Position numbers and translations under genes: made by a program | Shown: positions 5,067-11,875 of the stretch, one piece after another | Layout: the number at the start of each line of letters is the position of its first letter | How positions within the stretch are numbered: position 1 is the first letter of the stretch | Assembly (NCBI GenBank): GCA_002361655.1 | Contig: DETM01000016.1 | Location: 14,757-78,756, forward strand | Source: Prevotella sp. UBA3288 | GTDB lineage: Bacteria; Bacteroidota; Bacteroidia; Bacteroidales; Bacteroidaceae | Direction: 5' to 3' | Length of the DNA: 64,000 nt | The notes under the pieces: generated by a model | What the model saw: only the letters and a program-made list of their open reading frames with translations | Told to the model about the DNA's origin: nothing | Databases searched by the model: none

Positions 5067-7805
5067 ATGAACAGACTTCAGACCTTCTGCATGGCTATGC
5101 TTTGGCCCGCAATGATGACGGCGCAGATTGGGACCCGCTTCCCATCGGAGCGCAAGGTGATAACCGACCCCAAGACGGGTGTCGAACTGGTGTTTCTGAC
5201 CTCGAAGAGCGGTACCGGCGACTCGAAGATCTACCAGACCCACAACCAGTGGACCAGCGACGGGCGTTGGGTCATCTTCCGCTCCGACCGTGTCAAGGGT
5301 TACGATTCGGTAAGTAAGCGCGGATGGAGCGAGGCGATGGCCGTTAACGAGGAGACGGGCGAGATGGTGCAGGTGACGGAAGGCGGCTTCACGGGGATGC
5401 TCTGTGTGGCCCGCAAGTCGATGAACCTCTACATCATGCGTCATGCCCTGGACAAGAAAGGTAACCGCACCGGTATGGAGGTGGTGGAAATCAACCTGGA
5501 GAAACTCTTCGCCGACAGCGAGGCCGGCAGCCTGAAGAAGAAACAGGCCTATGAGCGCGTCTGTGGCGTGATTCCTGCCGAGATGTGCAGCGAGGGCGAC
5601 ATGGCCCTCGACGGCAGCGAGACCATTGCCTATTTCCGGCTGGACAAGGACTATGCCGGCAGATTTCCCATCGCCGAACCGATCGCCTCCAACTTCGGCC
5701 CTCGCAAGATGGGGTCCGGTCCCGGCGGTATCGGCAAAATAGACCTCACCACGGGAAAGTGTGAGCCGGTGGTGGCCGTCCACTTCAAGGTGGGGCACAT
5801 ACAGGGCAACCCCTGGAAGTCCGGCGAGGTCATCTTCTGCTGGGAGACCGGCGGCAAGGCACCGCAGCGCACCTGGATCTGCAATGCCGACGGAAGCGGA
5901 CTGCGCCCCGTCTACCGCGAGACCGAACACGACTGGGTGACCCACGAGGCAGTCATTAGTGCCGACGAGTTGGTCATTGCCATCATCGGCCACCGGCCGA
6001 TAGGCAAGGGTGAGCAGAAGAAAATTGACGGTCTCGAAGCCTTTGCCACCTCCAGCGACTGGGGGCCCTCGGGCACGAAAGCCTATCCCACCGGCATTGC
6101 CGTGGTCAATATGCGAACGCGGGAGTTGACGATGGAGGGCCAGGTGGCCGGCGACAACTTCTGGCATGTGGGGGGCTCGAGCGACGGCCACTGGTTAGTG
6201 GGCGACGACTTTGCCCGTGAACTATGGCTGATAGACCGCCATAGCGGCGAGCGCATCCTGCTCACCGCAGGTCATAAGACCACGGCCCGCGACCATGTGC
6301 ACCCCACCTTCAAGCCCGATGGCACAGAGATAGAGATTCAGTCGGCCATGCTCTCTGATGACGGCCGCTCGATGAACATCTGCATCGTGAAGTTGCCACA
6401 GCATCTGCTTGACAGATATAAGAAGTCTCATGGCACCGCGGCACAGACTATGGTGAACGACAACAACACCCCGCTGCACCTGCTGAAGCCGGCCTACAAG
6501 GTGGGCTATGGCATTCCGAAAGCAGAGGAAGTGAAACAGACGATGGACCGCGTGCTGAAATACATCGACAGCGAGACCCCGGCCGTGCTGGTGGACAAGC
6601 GTACGGGCAAGGAAGTGACCGACCTGAAACAAGTGAACGAGAACACCCAGTTGAAGCAGGGCGGCTTCCGTCTGACCAGTTATGAGTGGGGTGTCACCTA
6701 TTCCGGTGTGCTGTCGGCCTACGAGGCTACCGGCGACGCTGCCTATCGCGACTATGTGGTGAAGCGCCACCGTCTGCTGGGAGACATCGCACCCGCCTTC
6801 CGCCAACTGCACCGCGATGGCAAGCAGATTGACGGCAATGTGCGCCGTGTCGTGGACCCTCATGCCCTCGACGATGCCGGAGCCGTGTGCTGCTCGATGA
6901 TCAAGAATGTGCTGAGACAAGAGGAGGGCTGCGGCGACGGCACAGCACTGCATGCTTCACTAAGACCTCTCATCGACAACTACGCCGACTATATATTAAA
7001 TAAGGAGTACCGCCTCAGCGACGGCACCTTTGCCCGTCTGCGGCCTCAGAAGAACACGGTGTGGCTGGACGATATGTTTATGGGCATACCGGCCGTGGCC
7101 TACATGGGCCGGCTGACCGGCGAACGGAAATACTACGACGAGGCCGCCAGACTGGTGTTGCAGTTTGCCGACAGGATGTGGGTGGAGGAGGAGAAACTGT
7201 TCCGTCACGGATGGGTGGAGGCCATGCTGCCGCATCCCTCCTTCTTCTGGGGCCGCGCCAACGGATGGGCCATACTGACGATGTGCGAGGTGCTCGACGT
7301 GCTGCCCGCCGACCACCCGCAACGTCAGCAGATACTCAACTTACTGCAAAGCCATGCCGCGGGCCTTGCCGCCCTACAGGGTAATGACGGCTTCTGGCAT
7401 CAACTGCTCAATCGCACCGACTCCTATCCCGAGACTTCGGCCACCGCCATCTATACCTACTGTCTCGCTCACGCCATCAACCAAGGCTGGCTGGACGCCA
7501 AAGCCTATGGGGCGGCAACGCTACTGGGCTGGCACGCCGTCAATAGCGCAGTGAACAGCAAAGGCCAGGTGGAAGGAGTCTGCGTAGGTACGGGTATGGG
7601 CTTCGACCCGTCGTTCTATGCCTACCGCCCGGTGCATGTGATGGCCGCCCACGGCTATGGCCCTGTAATCTGGGCCGGTGCTGAGGTCATCCGACTGCTG
7701 AAAAGCCAATATCCGAAGATGAACGACAGTGCCGTACACTTCTACGACCAGCCCGTACCGACGGACAAGCCGATCTTCAATTACGACGGTAAGATACGGT
7801 TCTGA
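5067..7805 (+). CDS. PL22-like / GH105 fusion (unsaturated rhamnogalacturonyl hydrolase)
   Basis: A 912-residue secreted protein with two catalytic-type halves. After a signal peptide (about 1-19) comes a seven-bladed propeller resembling PL22 oligogalacturonate lyase, about 20-455. Metal-binding-type histidines lie in GHIQGNPW (His244), THEAV (His293) and HVHP (His410, His412). In canonical PL22 a Gln precedes the HxH pair by three residues; here that position appears to be Ala. The second half, from about 462, is a GH105 (alpha/alpha)6 barrel with WLDDMFMG (Asp668, Asp669) and WGRANGW (728-734), which hydrolyses the unsaturated galacturonosyl residue left by rhamnogalacturonan lyases. The gene is plus-strand, alone, and its 3' end overlaps the convergent gene by 29 bp. 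The GH105 call is strong; the PL22 activity is inferred. Confidence 0.85.
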   Translation: MNRLQTFCMAMLWPAMMTAQIGTRFPSERKVITDPKTGVELVFLTSKSGTGDSKIYQTHNQWTSDGRWVIFRSDRVKGYDSVSKRGWSEAMAVNEETGEMVQVTEGGFTGMLCVARKSMNLYIMRHALDKKGNRTGMEVVEINLEKLFADSEAGSLKKKQAYERVCGVIPAEMCSEGDMALDGSETIAYFRLDKDYAGRFPIAEPIASNFGPRKMGSGPGGIGKIDLTTGKCEPVVAVHFKVGHIQGNPWKSGEVIFCWETGGKAPQRTWICNADGSGLRPVYRETEHDWVTHEAVISADELVIAIIGHRPIGKGEQKKIDGLEAFATSSDWGPSGTKAYPTGIAVVNMRTRELTMEGQVAGDNFWHVGGSSDGHWLVGDDFARELWLIDRHSGERILLTAGHKTTARDHVHPTFKPDGTEIEIQSAMLSDDGRSMNICIVKLPQHLLDRYKKSHGTAAQTMVNDNNTPLHLLKPAYKVGYGIPKAEEVKQTMDRVLKYIDSETPAVLVDKRTGKEVTDLKQVNENTQLKQGGFRLTSYEWGVTYSGVLSAYEATGDAAYRDYVVKRHRLLGDIAPAFRQLHRDGKQIDGNVRRVVDPHALDDAGAVCCSMIKNVLRQEEGCGDGTALHASLRPLIDNYADYILNKEYRLSDGTFARLRPQKNTVWLDDMFMGIPAVAYMGRLTGERKYYDEAARLVLQFADRMWVEEEKLFRHGWVEAMLPHPSFFWGRANGWAILTMCEVLDVLPADHPQRQQILNLLQSHAAGLAALQGNDGFWHQLLNRTDSYPETSATAIYTYCLAHAINQGWLDAKAYGAATLLGWHAVNSAVNSKGQVEGVCVGTGMGFDPSFYAYRPVHVMAAHGYGPVIWAGAEVIRLLKSQYPKMNDSAVHFYDQPVPTDKPIFNYDGKIRF

Positions 7806-9606
7806 CCATCTTCTTGCCGTTGTGAATATACAGGCCCTTGCCGGGACTGTCCACCGTCTTGCCGTCGATGGTATAATAGCCCTTGTCATGATGTTCGACG
7901 CCCAGGCGGAAGACCTCGGAGACCTTCGTCTGCACATCGTCATCGTCGAACACCATCATGAGCGACTCTGGGGCCACCCCTTCTTGGACGACATGGAGAT
8001 ATGCCTCGCCCACCTGCACGGTCTGAGTGCCGCCCATACGGTTATACTGCTGGCGCTCAGCATCGGTGAGATAGTTGTAGAAAACCTGATCGTTACCTTC
8101 CTGATGGTAGGGTGCGCTCCAACTGTTCCAGTAGCCTCTGACCCCTTCGTCACGACAGTACTCCATCATCCACATGGGTTTGTTCTGCGACTTGTTGATA
8201 TAGAGCATCTCACCGCCATATTCCGCCTCTGCCACGTCGAGCATCCCCCGTGAGCCCATGGCCCGTCCGCCATTGGGGTCGTAGCGTTCGCGTATGGCAA
8301 GCATCTCTTTCATGTGTTCCACACTGATGTCGGCATTACCGCACTCGTAGAAAATGATGCTGGGATAATTGCGCAAATAGATAATAGCATCGCGCATCAC
8401 CTCCTTACGGTCAGTCCATTGCTGTCCACTGGCATCAGCCTCGGCATCGCCGGCTGGCATGGCCTGTATCAGCCCGACCCGGTCGCAGGACTGTACATCC
8501 TGGACCCATGGACAGACGTGCATCCACCGTACGAGATTGCCTCCGGATTTCACCACGAGGTCGTTGCTATAGTCGCTCACCCATGCAGGCACACACTGGC
8601 CTACGCCGGGCCACTCGTTGGTGGTACGCTGGGCATAGCCATGAACTTGCAGCACGCGGTCGTTGAGATAGAACATACCGTTCTTGAACTCTGTCTTACG
8701 GAAACCGGTGGTGGTCACTACCGTGTCTTCGCCGACAATGGTCTTAACCTTATACAGGTAGCCATAGCCCCACGACCAGAAATGGAGACCCCCGACCTGT
8801 TTCTCCGCCTTGAGGACAGTACGGCCGCCTGATGCCTTCAGACTTGCGGGCGCACTCTCAAAACGGGCAACTTCCTGTCCGTCATACTCGGTGATGATGA
8901 CCTTGAGGGGTTCGTCCTGACTGACAGTGAGGTCGTTCTGGACCTCGCTCTCCACACAGATGGTAGCCGTGTGACCGGCGATGTCGAAATCCTTGGCATA
9001 GATATAGACACCCGTCGTTCCCAGATTAGAATAGAGGGGCAGCGTCTGGTGCACCTTGGGGAGCACATGCAGCCATACATTCTTGTTCAGTCCACCATAG
9101 TTGGCGAAGAAATTGGTGCTGTTCCACTGCAGTTTGGAGTTCGTCTGCCGACGGCGATAGGTCCAAGAGTTGTCGGTCTTCACCTCTATGAGGTTCTCAC
9201 CTTCTTTCACCAGAGCGGTGATGTCGAGTCCGAAAGCCATCACGCCATTCTCGCTGTAGCCGGCAGAGCGACCGTTCACCAGCACGTCGGCAGCCATACG
9301 GCAGCCCTCAAACTCCAGCACGACACGCTGGCCTTTGGCCGACTCGGGCAGGGAGAACGTCTTGCGATACCACACGATACCGTCGCTCTGGTCGGAGATA
9401 TAGACACAGAAAGCCTCGTCTTCATTCCAGGCATGGGGCAGCGTGACACGTTCTGTGCCGCTCTTGATGCCTGATGCCAAGTCTTTATAGTCGATCACCC
9501 AGTCGCTGTTGAAGTTATAGACCTCGTGGGCACTACCTGTAACCGGTAACATCTGGCAAGTCACCAACAGCAAACCTGCCAGCAGGATTTTATATGTTTT
9601 CTTCAT
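7777..9606 (-). CDS. Chimeric gene: GH2 N-terminal half with a foreign C-terminal tail
   Basis: Residues 1-505 (counted from the MKKTYKILLAG start at 9606; an ATG at 9612 is also possible) are a signal peptide, the GH2 sugar-binding and Ig-like domains and most of the TIM barrel. Acid/base-type YECGN (Glu421) and WMMEYCRDEG (Glu482, probable nucleophile) are present. At YHQEGN the GH2 sequence stops, and residues 506-609 (from DQVFYNY) are instead the end of a Prevotella-type secreted protein: GEAYLHV, then a Por-like ending GKGLYIHNGKKMV. The missing GH2 C-terminal half is in the gene immediately upstream, one base before the ATG at 9612. The protein keeps both catalytic glutamates but lacks the end of the barrel, so activity on its own is doubtful. 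It overlaps the convergent PL22/GH105 gene by 29 bp. Confidence 0.8.
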   Translation of the reverse strand: MKKTYKILLAGLLLVTCQMLPVTGSAHEVYNFNSDWVIDYKDLASGIKSGTERVTLPHAWNEDEAFCVYISDQSDGIVWYRKTFSLPESAKGQRVVLEFEGCRMAADVLVNGRSAGYSENGVMAFGLDITALVKEGENLIEVKTDNSWTYRRRQTNSKLQWNSTNFFANYGGLNKNVWLHVLPKVHQTLPLYSNLGTTGVYIYAKDFDIAGHTATICVESEVQNDLTVSQDEPLKVIITEYDGQEVARFESAPASLKASGGRTVLKAEKQVGGLHFWSWGYGYLYKVKTIVGEDTVVTTTGFRKTEFKNGMFYLNDRVLQVHGYAQRTTNEWPGVGQCVPAWVSDYSNDLVVKSGGNLVRWMHVCPWVQDVQSCDRVGLIQAMPAGDAEADASGQQWTDRKEVMRDAIIYLRNYPSIIFYECGNADISVEHMKEMLAIRERYDPNGGRAMGSRGMLDVAEAEYGGEMLYINKSQNKPMWMMEYCRDEGVRGYWNSWSAPYHQEGNDQVFYNYLTDAERQQYNRMGGTQTVQVGEAYLHVVQEGVAPESLMMVFDDDDVQTKVSEVFRLGVEHHDKGYYTIDGKTVDSPGKGLYIHNGKKMVRTVSYRRN

Positions 9607-9613
9607 TGTCATA

Positions 9614-11875
9614 CTATTTTAAGAATTCTATCTCTGTAATACTGAGGACATAATTGCCGGAACTGCTGGCTGCGGTGGAGCCATTCAATTCGACGATCTC
9701 ACCGAAAGCGTCACCAGTGGTACTCGCATTAAGCATCTTGATACGATAGGTCTGCGAGGCCGGGGCCTCACTGAGTTTCATACGGACATAGCCCAACGTC
9801 TTCGGGGTATAGCCGCGCCACACCTCGGTATCGCCGGAATAGACAGCGATGGGATAACTGGTAGTGCGGAAGCCTCCCATCTTGGCAGCAATCTCCTTGA
9901 GTTGTACGGCCTCATCGAAGGTAAACTCGATCCATGAGGATGACAGCGTATTACCGCTGGACCAAGTGGTACGCTCGTTGTCATCATAGCACTGCTCGGG
10001 ATTGGCACCACTACCAGTCTTTGCACTCTTCACGGGGACACCCGTCAGTTGCTGGTCGAAAGAGGGTGTCGATGGTGTCTCGCCACGATCGAGCACTGGC
10101 TTCAGACCGTCGACCGGAGCAAAGGTGCTCAGTCCGTTGACAGTCTCGACGGGGAGGGTCGTCAGATCGATGCTGACAGGCGACAGGCCCTCTGCACTGG
10201 CCGTAAGCGTCACGCTACCGGCTTCTGCCAATGAACGAAGCATGACACGGTTGATACCGCTCTGTACGGGCAGCGTGGTGGAAAAGGCATAGTTGTCGTT
10301 GGTCCAACGGGCACCAATGGGCTGTGTAGAACCGTGGGCCACGCCGCCCAGCCACTGAGCAGGGCCGTCAAGGCTGAAGGTCACATCACGGTTGTCTAAC
10401 GGACAGCGGCGACCCTCAGCATCCACAATCTCCACGTCGACTAATGCCACATCGGCTCCATCAGCCTTCCAGCCAGTGGGGTGCTGCATTGCCGTCAGCA
10501 CCAGACGCGCAGGCTCACCGGTGGTTTGCAGCGTGTGGCGGGACTGCTCTTGATGCTGCCCGTCATAGCCGATAGCCGTGAGCGTTCCCGCTGTAAAAGG
10601 CACCTTGTCGAAGATGAACAGGAAGTCGCCATCTTTCCGTGTGGGCTGCAGAACGGTCTCATCGGGCAGGCGCAACTCCACCGCAGGACTGGTAGACACC
10701 ACATAGATGCGGGGAATGGTCTGGCCGCTCTCATAGTTCCAATGACCACAGATATAGGTGTGGGGTTTCAGGTCGTCGACCCAGCCGTCCCACATGGCCT
10801 GATGCACGAAGAAAGCATCCTTGGGAAGGCGCATCGGGTCGACAATGCCGCTGGTTCGGAAATTCTCCACACCACGGCTGTGGGTCTGTGAGTCACTGAA
10901 GATAATCTTCACACCACCGGCATTGACCCTCGTGCCCTGTCCGGGACGCTCCTGGTAGTACTCCTGCCAGCGTCGCACCAACTCGGCAGCAAACTCATCG
11001 CTGTTGTGATGATAGGAGGCGGATGTCACCTCGGCCTCTTCAGCCTTGACTTTCTGTATGGTCATGGCCGGACGAAGCAGATTCTTCCCAATAGGGGTGG
11101 CGGTTTTCATCACGCGGATGTTATAGGTCTTACCGGCCGTACCACGCATCACGACACCGGTCTGACCCGGTACAGCATACACACGCTTCATGGCGACATT
11201 GCCGTCTTGGACTTCGTCTGCTATATAGGCACGCAAATCGGAATTGGTCAGATCGAGGTTGAGGGGCGACGAGAACGAGAAGCAGTCAGAAGGAGCCAAC
11301 AGGCTATACTCCTCGACATCGGGCACAAAACGCGCCGCAACGAGATAGGATTTTACGTTGGACCCGAAGTAATAGACGCCACCTGCCGATGCCTTGTACT
11401 TCATCTCCGTAGGTGTCTTCGTGGATACTACATGCTGCACCTCCGTACCGTTGAACTTCAGGTACATGTAGCGGTCGGCATTATTCTGGGAGCACATCAT
11501 AATGACATAGAGAGTACCGGGAACGGCTGTATGGATGGCGAAACAACAGTCGGTCTTCTTGCTCTGAGGGGCAACAGATGCTGTCATTCCATTCGTATCA
11601 AATACAGGGCCTGCCACATTGGTTCCCACATTCAACACATTCCACTGACTGCCATCACTGAAGGTGCCGGAAAGGGCATTGGACTCGACAGTCAGTGTTC
11701 TGGCACTTGTGGCACGCAAATACATGCCACGGAAATTGGTGAGAGACTGAAAAGTTCTCCCGGCATCATACTGGTCGAACGACCAAAACGACGGTTCGCT
11801 GACCAGTTCATCAGCAGCACTACCTGTCATCACACAAAGGAGCGATAGGCAAACTGAAAGGATAGTTTTCTTCAT
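9614..11875 (-). CDS. Chimeric gene: secreted-protein N-terminus joined to the GH2 C-terminal half with F5/8-type domain
   Basis: The likely start is MKKTILSV at 11875; the frame is open further upstream to 12040 but that part overlaps the esterase gene. Residues 1-286 are a signal peptide, a CBM-like beta-sandwich and a region of the kind that precedes a secretion tail in Prevotella proteins (GQTGVVMRGTAGKTYNIRVM). From about 287 (SYHHNSDEFAAELVRRW) the sequence becomes the C-terminal half of a GH2 enzyme: YYQERPGQGTRV, then AMWDGWVDD and GHWNYESG, then Ig-like domains, and an F5/8 type C (discoidin-like) domain at about 615-720. The catalytic glutamates are absent and are found in the next gene. 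It follows the esterase gene with a 26-bp gap, so it is part of the long operon. Confidence 0.8.
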   Translation of the reverse strand: MKKTILSVCLSLLCVMTGSAADELVSEPSFWSFDQYDAGRTFQSLTNFRGMYLRATSARTLTVESNALSGTFSDGSQWNVLNVGTNVAGPVFDTNGMTASVAPQSKKTDCCFAIHTAVPGTLYVIMMCSQNNADRYMYLKFNGTEVQHVVSTKTPTEMKYKASAGGVYYFGSNVKSYLVAARFVPDVEEYSLLAPSDCFSFSSPLNLDLTNSDLRAYIADEVQDGNVAMKRVYAVPGQTGVVMRGTAGKTYNIRVMKTATPIGKNLLRPAMTIQKVKAEEAEVTSASYHHNSDEFAAELVRRWQEYYQERPGQGTRVNAGGVKIIFSDSQTHSRGVENFRTSGIVDPMRLPKDAFFVHQAMWDGWVDDLKPHTYICGHWNYESGQTIPRIYVVSTSPAVELRLPDETVLQPTRKDGDFLFIFDKVPFTAGTLTAIGYDGQHQEQSRHTLQTTGEPARLVLTAMQHPTGWKADGADVALVDVEIVDAEGRRCPLDNRDVTFSLDGPAQWLGGVAHGSTQPIGARWTNDNYAFSTTLPVQSGINRVMLRSLAEAGSVTLTASAEGLSPVSIDLTTLPVETVNGLSTFAPVDGLKPVLDRGETPSTPSFDQQLTGVPVKSAKTGSGANPEQCYDDNERTTWSSGNTLSSSWIEFTFDEAVQLKEIAAKMGGFRTTSYPIAVYSGDTEVWRGYTPKTLGYVRMKLSEAPASQTYRIKMLNASTTGDAFGEIVELNGSTAASSSGNYVLSITEIEFLK

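Follow-up and report, generated by a model that had tools for sequence, protein, structure and literature searches.

A permuted glycoside hydrolase family 2 enzyme divided between two adjacent genes of Prevotella

Anatomy of the gene pair

The window analysed here is a stretch of 64,000 nucleotides from Prevotella sp. UBA3288, on whose minus strand two open reading frames (ORFs), both of them open, follow one another: ORF A (9614-11875) and then ORF B (7777-9612). Together they carry one glycoside hydrolase family 2 (GH2) enzyme in permuted order, its C-terminal part in A and its N-terminal part in B, along with the two halves of a second domain, termed here the beta-domain. A GH2 gene permuted across these two ORFs had been proposed in an original prediction, and it proved to be real: both ORFs are open where they had been placed, and the cut is confirmed by the alignment of uncut relatives. 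The pair is quite probably an old, conserved bicistron for a secreted two-chain GH2 glycosidase, which would have arisen by permuted insertion into a gene encoding a carbohydrate-binding module (CBM) and a beta-domain. The features are as follows, in the order of transcription; TIM denotes the triosephosphate isomerase fold and HMM a hidden Markov model.

9614..11875, minus strand: ORF A, 753 residues, with signal peptide, CBM-like domain, N-terminal half of the beta-domain, GH2 C-terminal part and CBM32-like domain
11810..11875, minus strand: Sec-type signal peptide of A (residues 1-22), assigned by eye from the sequence
11306..11800, minus strand: CBM-like jelly-roll domain (A 26-190)
11024..11278, minus strand: N-terminal half of the beta-domain (A 200-284), matching positions 13-98 of 192 in an HMM of uncut domains, independent E-value 1.2e-20
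11015..11023, minus strand: junction of beta-domain and GH2 in A, between the end of the HMM match and the GH2 homology
10772..11014, minus strand: C-terminal fragment of the GH2 TIM barrel (A 288-368, end set by eye), from alignment to uncut GH2
10169..10711, minus strand: DUF4982 and Glyco_hydro2_C5 domains (A 389-569), from Pfam
9617..10057, minus strand: F5/8-type C or CBM32-like domain (A 607-753)
7777..9612, minus strand: ORF B, 611 residues, with signal peptide, GH2 N-terminal part, C-terminal half of the beta-domain and tail
9529..9606, minus strand: Sec-type signal peptide of B (residues 3-28), assigned by eye from the sequence
8707..9528, minus strand: GH2 N-terminal beta-domains (B 29-302), PF02837, PF22666 and PF00703, all three above their cut-offs
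8092..8706, minus strand: N-terminal part of the GH2 TIM barrel (B 303-507), matching positions 3-154 of 302 in PF02836 at 20.9 bits against a cut-off of 21
8344..8346 and 8161..8163, minus strand: E423 and E484 in the barrel part of B, both conserved without exception in the 10 rows of the B-type alignment
8077..8091, minus strand: junction of GH2 and beta-domain in B, from alignment to uncut GH2 and the beta-domain HMM
7780..8076, minus strand: C-terminal half of the beta-domain with a KGLYIHNGKK tail (B 513-611), matching HMM positions 99-190 of 192, independent E-value 3e-16

The start of ORF A at 11875 agrees with that of its homologues, and the likely start of ORF B is the ATG at 9606, in agreement with homologues that begin MKK or MNK. 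The predicted gap of 1 bp between the genes therefore holds if the annotated start of ORF B is used, and becomes 7 bases with the ATG that matches the homologues; in three related loci it measures 36 bases. The junctions needed a similar adjustment: placed by homology, that in A lies at 11015-11023 (about 10997-11020 had been proposed) and that in B at 8077-8091, some 15 bases away from the proposed 8089-8109. The short similarity CCTA-Y-CATCA, once put forward as shared by the two joints, had to be given up, since this 10-base word occurs at two non-equivalent GH2 positions and thus looks coincidental; a microhomology joint at this word was ruled out on the same ground.

The divided barrel and the divided beta-domain

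Searches with Pfam place the GH2_N and GH2 Ig-like domains of B over their cut-offs and the barrel profile just below its own, while another search gives PF02836 26 bits when its neighbours in the frame are included. In A, DUF4982 (24.1 against a cut-off of 23.9) and Glyco_hydro2_C5 (61.8 against 32) are over cut-off, and the F5/8-type C match is sub-threshold. Among the hallmarks of the GH2 family, the sugar-binding, Ig-like and TIM-barrel domains are thus found in B and the C-terminal domains in A, in keeping with the earlier claim that the two parts joined make a GH2 enzyme. A complete barrel in a single chain is absent, the barrel being divided between B and A in the alignment to uncut relatives.

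The barrel profile match to B does not by itself reveal a cut, because the match of an uncut relative from the same genome is likewise confined to positions 4-154. The cut is seen by aligning uncut relatives: at the place concerned, all 20 that were extracted have a sequence like SYPFHKEGDGPLYRNAPADAYNHNNDEF. B retains GH2 sequence as far as PYHQEGN, that of A sets in at YHHNSDEF, and about ten loop residues of the uncut enzyme (GPLYRNAPAD) are absent or replaced; the cut falls about 80 residues ahead of the barrel end, which was set by eye. By the known clan A layout, with the nucleophile at the end of strand 7, the last strand and helix, approximately 80 residues, would be in A, and the remainder, including both conserved glutamates, in B. 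We take E484 to be this nucleophile and E423 the acid/base, from the layout of the family and an alignment to PDB entry 6HPD. The motifs F[YW]ExGN and WxMEY[CG] are present in all 15 B-type rows, and FSDxQxHxR and RxSGxVDxMRxPKD in all 16 A-type rows; the last is present in 31 of 39 uncut rows, a set selected partly by such motifs. Judged by these alignments, motifs from both sides of the active site are retained across the permuted rows. The window's genome also encodes an uncut relative of the split GH2 in a frame of 1033 residues (G000:C57:27175-30171).

The beta-domain, too, is divided into complementary halves. The beta-domain HMM, of 192 positions, was built from 19 uncut rows, two pairs of which represent the same domain. 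All 16 A-type rows match its first part only, 15 of them ending by position 98 and P0013 at 105. The second part is matched by 14 of the 15 B-type rows, starting at positions 95-101, with P0131 reaching only 154; in P0130 the HMM reported only an extra uncut copy of the domain. When the outer parts of A and B are joined into one protein, called X, the HMM match covers its C-terminal 190 or so residues and runs straight through the junction (123 bits, positions 13-190 of 192). This bears out the proposal that the joined outer parts form a plausible secreted protein. A full-length match to this C-terminal module of Prevotella, which ends in a KGLYIxNGKK tail, is reached only jointly, with positions 13-98 from A and 99-190 from B, and the joined outer protein fits, on the evidence of the profile, a real module. 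Neither A nor B gave a match to TIGR04183, the sorting domain of the type IX secretion system (type A), with E values up to 1 considered.

A free-standing uncut X was not found in a search with the joined X, which returned only three B-type proteins and one leucine-rich repeat protein (E<=0.001, 2650 candidates). The latter carries an uncut beta-domain, and in G145 and G173 uncut modules of CBM and beta-domain were found within secreted proteins of larger size. The 191-residue protein of L147 (1495-2070, 123 bits), with a signal-peptide-like start and the CBM-like domain only, is a free-standing relative of the N-terminal part of A. The B-type proteins P0130 and P0131, of about 900 residues, continue after the GH2 N-terminal part and half beta-domain with a further CBM-like domain, an uncut beta-domain and the tail.

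Recurrence, selection and the choice between explanations

Protein searches with A and B recovered both fusions from other assemblies, cut at the same place. Besides those of the window there are at least 12 A-type clusters (P0002-P0013; 48-76% identity over 97-100% of A) and at least 11 B-type clusters (P0122-P0132; 60-79% identity, P0130 and P0131 covering 88% of B), both counts being lower bounds drawn from the best 120 matches per protein search. Near-copies occur among the rows (L085 with P0007 and P0125; L084 with P0126), and the row counts are therefore not all independent, some clusters copying the three related loci. P0156 was excluded from the B-type count; this GH2 protein of 604 residues appears to be an uncut relative that a frameshift has terminated. 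P0003 and P0123 come from contigs that are both sized 22988, which fits adjacency of A-type and B-type genes.

By using two peptide patterns from the N-terminal part of A-type proteins, three loci were retrieved from a genome collection that covers, by its description, 84,980 species. These belong to Prevotella sp. RGIG5162 (sheep abomasum; G382), Prevotellaceae bacterium UBA2718 (G194) and Prevotella sp. RUI320 (G212), three separately named records of metagenome-assembled genomes (MAGs), and with the window they make four loci, in all of which A lies directly upstream of B. Among 397 genomes drawn around G382, seven had matches to the A-type N-terminal part, three of them being of A type. 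In 399 genomes drawn in the family, with two candidates scored per genome, a full-length match was found only in the window's genome. One scan of viral contigs gave 12 stretches that fit a pattern, none of them a relative.

Permuted and uncut rows are separated by a branch in the trees of both halves. For the N half, with 15 permuted and 39 uncut rows, the support in the Shimodaira-Hasegawa-like approximate likelihood ratio test (SH-aLRT) was 94, short of the mark of 95 set by the program; for the C half (16 and 39 rows) it was 98. The rows were picked by us from the matches, the searches being quick ones, and the uncut rows P0014 and P0017, in which the cut pattern was unmatched, were dropped beforehand. 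For the joined alignment, row sets were varied until the two halves stayed apart. Purifying selection acts on all four segments among the three related loci, where the ratio of nonsynonymous to synonymous rates (dN/dS, YN00) is 0.08-0.16 in the N-terminal part of A, 0.07-0.09 in the GH2 C part, 0.05-0.07 in the GH2 N part and 0.08-0.21 in the C-terminal part of B. The permuted rows look like one lineage under selection. By segment, the barrel fragment of A has a mean pairwise identity of 0.894 in 16 A-type rows against 0.712 in the rest of the C half (0.872 against 0.653 in uncut relatives), and the N-half beta-domains are more alike in permuted (0.746) than in uncut rows (0.686).

In a predicted model of chain A alone, with a mean predicted local distance difference test (pLDDT) score of 75.4, the CBM, the beta-domain half, the GH2 C-terminal domains and the CBM32-like domain are mostly confident, and residues 310-350 of the barrel fragment, the loop 274-290 and some other loops fall below 50. 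The low-confidence barrel fragment fits the need for a partner and could also reflect the alignment.

From this evidence a scheme for the origin and working of the pair can be proposed. A GH2 gene would have been opened within the coding sequence of its barrel and inserted, circularly permuted, into a beta-domain loop in the gene of a secreted CBM and beta-domain protein. One insertion of the permuted GH2, as a circle or as a fragment spanning a tandem duplicate, would suffice to yield the order XN-GH2C-GH2N-XC; the natural stop and start of GH2 would therefore fall in the middle of the locus, ending chain A and beginning chain B. Each chain would retain a signal peptide, and A and B would be exported separately and assemble outside the cytoplasm. 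There the barrel would be completed by B, with E423 and E484, and the last barrel segment supplied by A, while the same two chains would complete the split beta-domain, which may act as a second clasp. The product would be a GH2 enzyme bearing a CBM32-like and a second CBM-like domain. That the chains cross-complement at both domains at once, with the split beta-domain as clasp and one ancient permuted insertion as origin, is favoured here with somewhat less assurance than the bicistron itself. The earlier suggestion of an enzyme working as two polypeptides gains support, assembly and activity being predicted from sequence.

Several observations weigh against this interpretation. B-type proteins were recognised, as whole-model matches in a frame of about 611 residues, in only 4 of 398 genomes of the genus (G000, G194, G382, G212); a frame of 602 residues in G259:C90 matches the model at 9-522 and stops short of the beta-domain part. 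Two of these four genomes (G000, G212) also hold an uncut GH2 relative, and the pair may therefore be dispensable. The four-segment dN/dS values come from three of the six locus pairs, none of them with the window, and the 22 codons of the A signal peptide give 0.60 between the window and L084. The barrel part of B is less alike in permuted (0.828) than in uncut rows (0.859), and since the other parts run in the opposite direction it appears to have drifted slightly more than expected. For the joined chain of L084, AlphaFold2 gave a model with a mean pLDDT of 55.3 and a predicted template modelling score of 0.36, from an alignment that held 13 rows for the B part. Its ten-residue blocks in the B barrel range from about 21 to 57, low even where any GH2 must fold, and for this reason the model speaks neither for nor against assembly.

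Among the other explanations, the one that survives best keeps product and function and changes the origin: tandem X and GH2 genes would have swapped tails step by step, by way of duplication and deletion, with the same gene order as the result, and nine places in the genome match the GH2 barrel profile. By our reckoning this path calls for two or more events, where a circle or a tandem-duplicate fragment needs one, and no intermediate appeared among the matches listed, from searches that were not aimed at intermediates; it is possible, though clearly less probable. A less likely reading holds that A and B are independent proteins that do not assemble, A binding carbohydrate with leftover GH2 C-terminal domains, and B, a truncated GH2, acting by itself or being inactive. 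The association of A with B is something we infer, the CBM and beta-sandwich domains are confident in the model of chain A alone, and the slightly lower conservation of the B barrel part agrees with such a reading. However, the barrel fragment of A, so poorly predicted alone, is more conserved than the rest of its half, the beta-domain halves are retained at one complementary cut, and A and B occur together at every one of the four loci. A rearranged, decaying remnant or a chimeric assembly, both raised originally, might be suspected from the odd arrangement and the fragmented, MAG-like genome (66 contigs, 68.6% complete), yet is highly improbable, as the frames are open with the same joints in RGIG5162, UBA2718, RUI320 and clusters of other assemblies at 48-79% identity, and dN/dS is well below 1 among the three loci.

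Known divided enzymes and genomic setting

The closest parallel is LacLM, the heterodimeric GH2 beta-galactosidases of lactobacilli, whose two chains are encoded by adjacent genes (PMC6412629, PMC5145203). According to the parts of these sources consulted, LacL retains the barrel and LacM corresponds to the C-terminal beta-sandwich (PMC5145203), and the two genes overlap (PMC6412629). Both systems have adjacent genes for complementary GH2 parts, here in four of four loci. LacLM is cut between barrel and beta-sandwich, whereas A and B are cut inside the barrel; the LacLM genes overlap with the N-terminal part first, whereas here the C-terminal part comes first and the genes are spaced apart; and each GH2 half of A and B, unlike those of LacLM, is fused to half of another domain. 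The pair would hence be a bicistronic GH2 of a new kind of cut, with two-chain activity as the expected property.

Human heparanase, an enzyme of a different family, GH79, offers another comparison. In the sections of the source consulted, its TIM barrel is shared by two non-covalently joined chains of 8 and 50 kDa, the smaller of which also gives a strand to the beta-sandwich (PMC6892829). These chains come from proteolysis of one precursor, whereas A and B come from two genes, and heparanase, as far as it is described there, has neither permutation nor exchange of domain halves. The combination of reversed gene order with two domains cut and interlaced is seen in A and B and, within those descriptions, not in LacLM or heparanase. 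For the gene event itself, animal mitochondrial cox2 offers a parallel: after its insertional fission the parts persist as complementary genes (PMC5374615). The protein is a different one, and the portion consulted has nothing on permuted order. Literature searches turned up no account of a GH2 split and permuted in this way, which is no proof that none has been published. Among relatives of solved structure the nearest is 6HPD, titled beta-glucuronidase with the molecule name beta-galactosidase; it is one uncut chain, unlike A and B.

Split-protein tools are usually engineered, and if the proposed reading is true, the pair would be a natural, evolution-tested case with two domains cut and interlaced over the same chains, as well as a concrete case of a gene permuted into another gene and nevertheless kept by selection. 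It would further lend itself to testing whether the reassembly of a divided TIM barrel is driven by a second divided domain. Labelling A and B as separate truncated glycosidases would then mislead.

Phase-variable shuffling was also considered, and a Pfam scan gave no recombinase among seven neighbours in the window and eight in L084, three of the latter being without any family. In L084 (8001-12152) and L085 (3965-8116) the pair lies between a lyase (PF00206, argH-like) on one side and a major facilitator superfamily transporter with a LacI-type regulator on the other, the neighbour families having been tested in L084 and assigned in L085 by its similar ORFs; no SusC/SusD-like gene was noticed in these two stretches. 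In the window, the neighbours comprise a SusC/SusD-like pair, GH115, acetyl xylan esterase-like and GH88-like genes and a second GH2, and with such neighbours the pair is probably part of a polysaccharide utilization locus. At its end, ORF B shares 29 bases (7777-7805) with a convergent GH88-like gene (5067-7805, plus strand).
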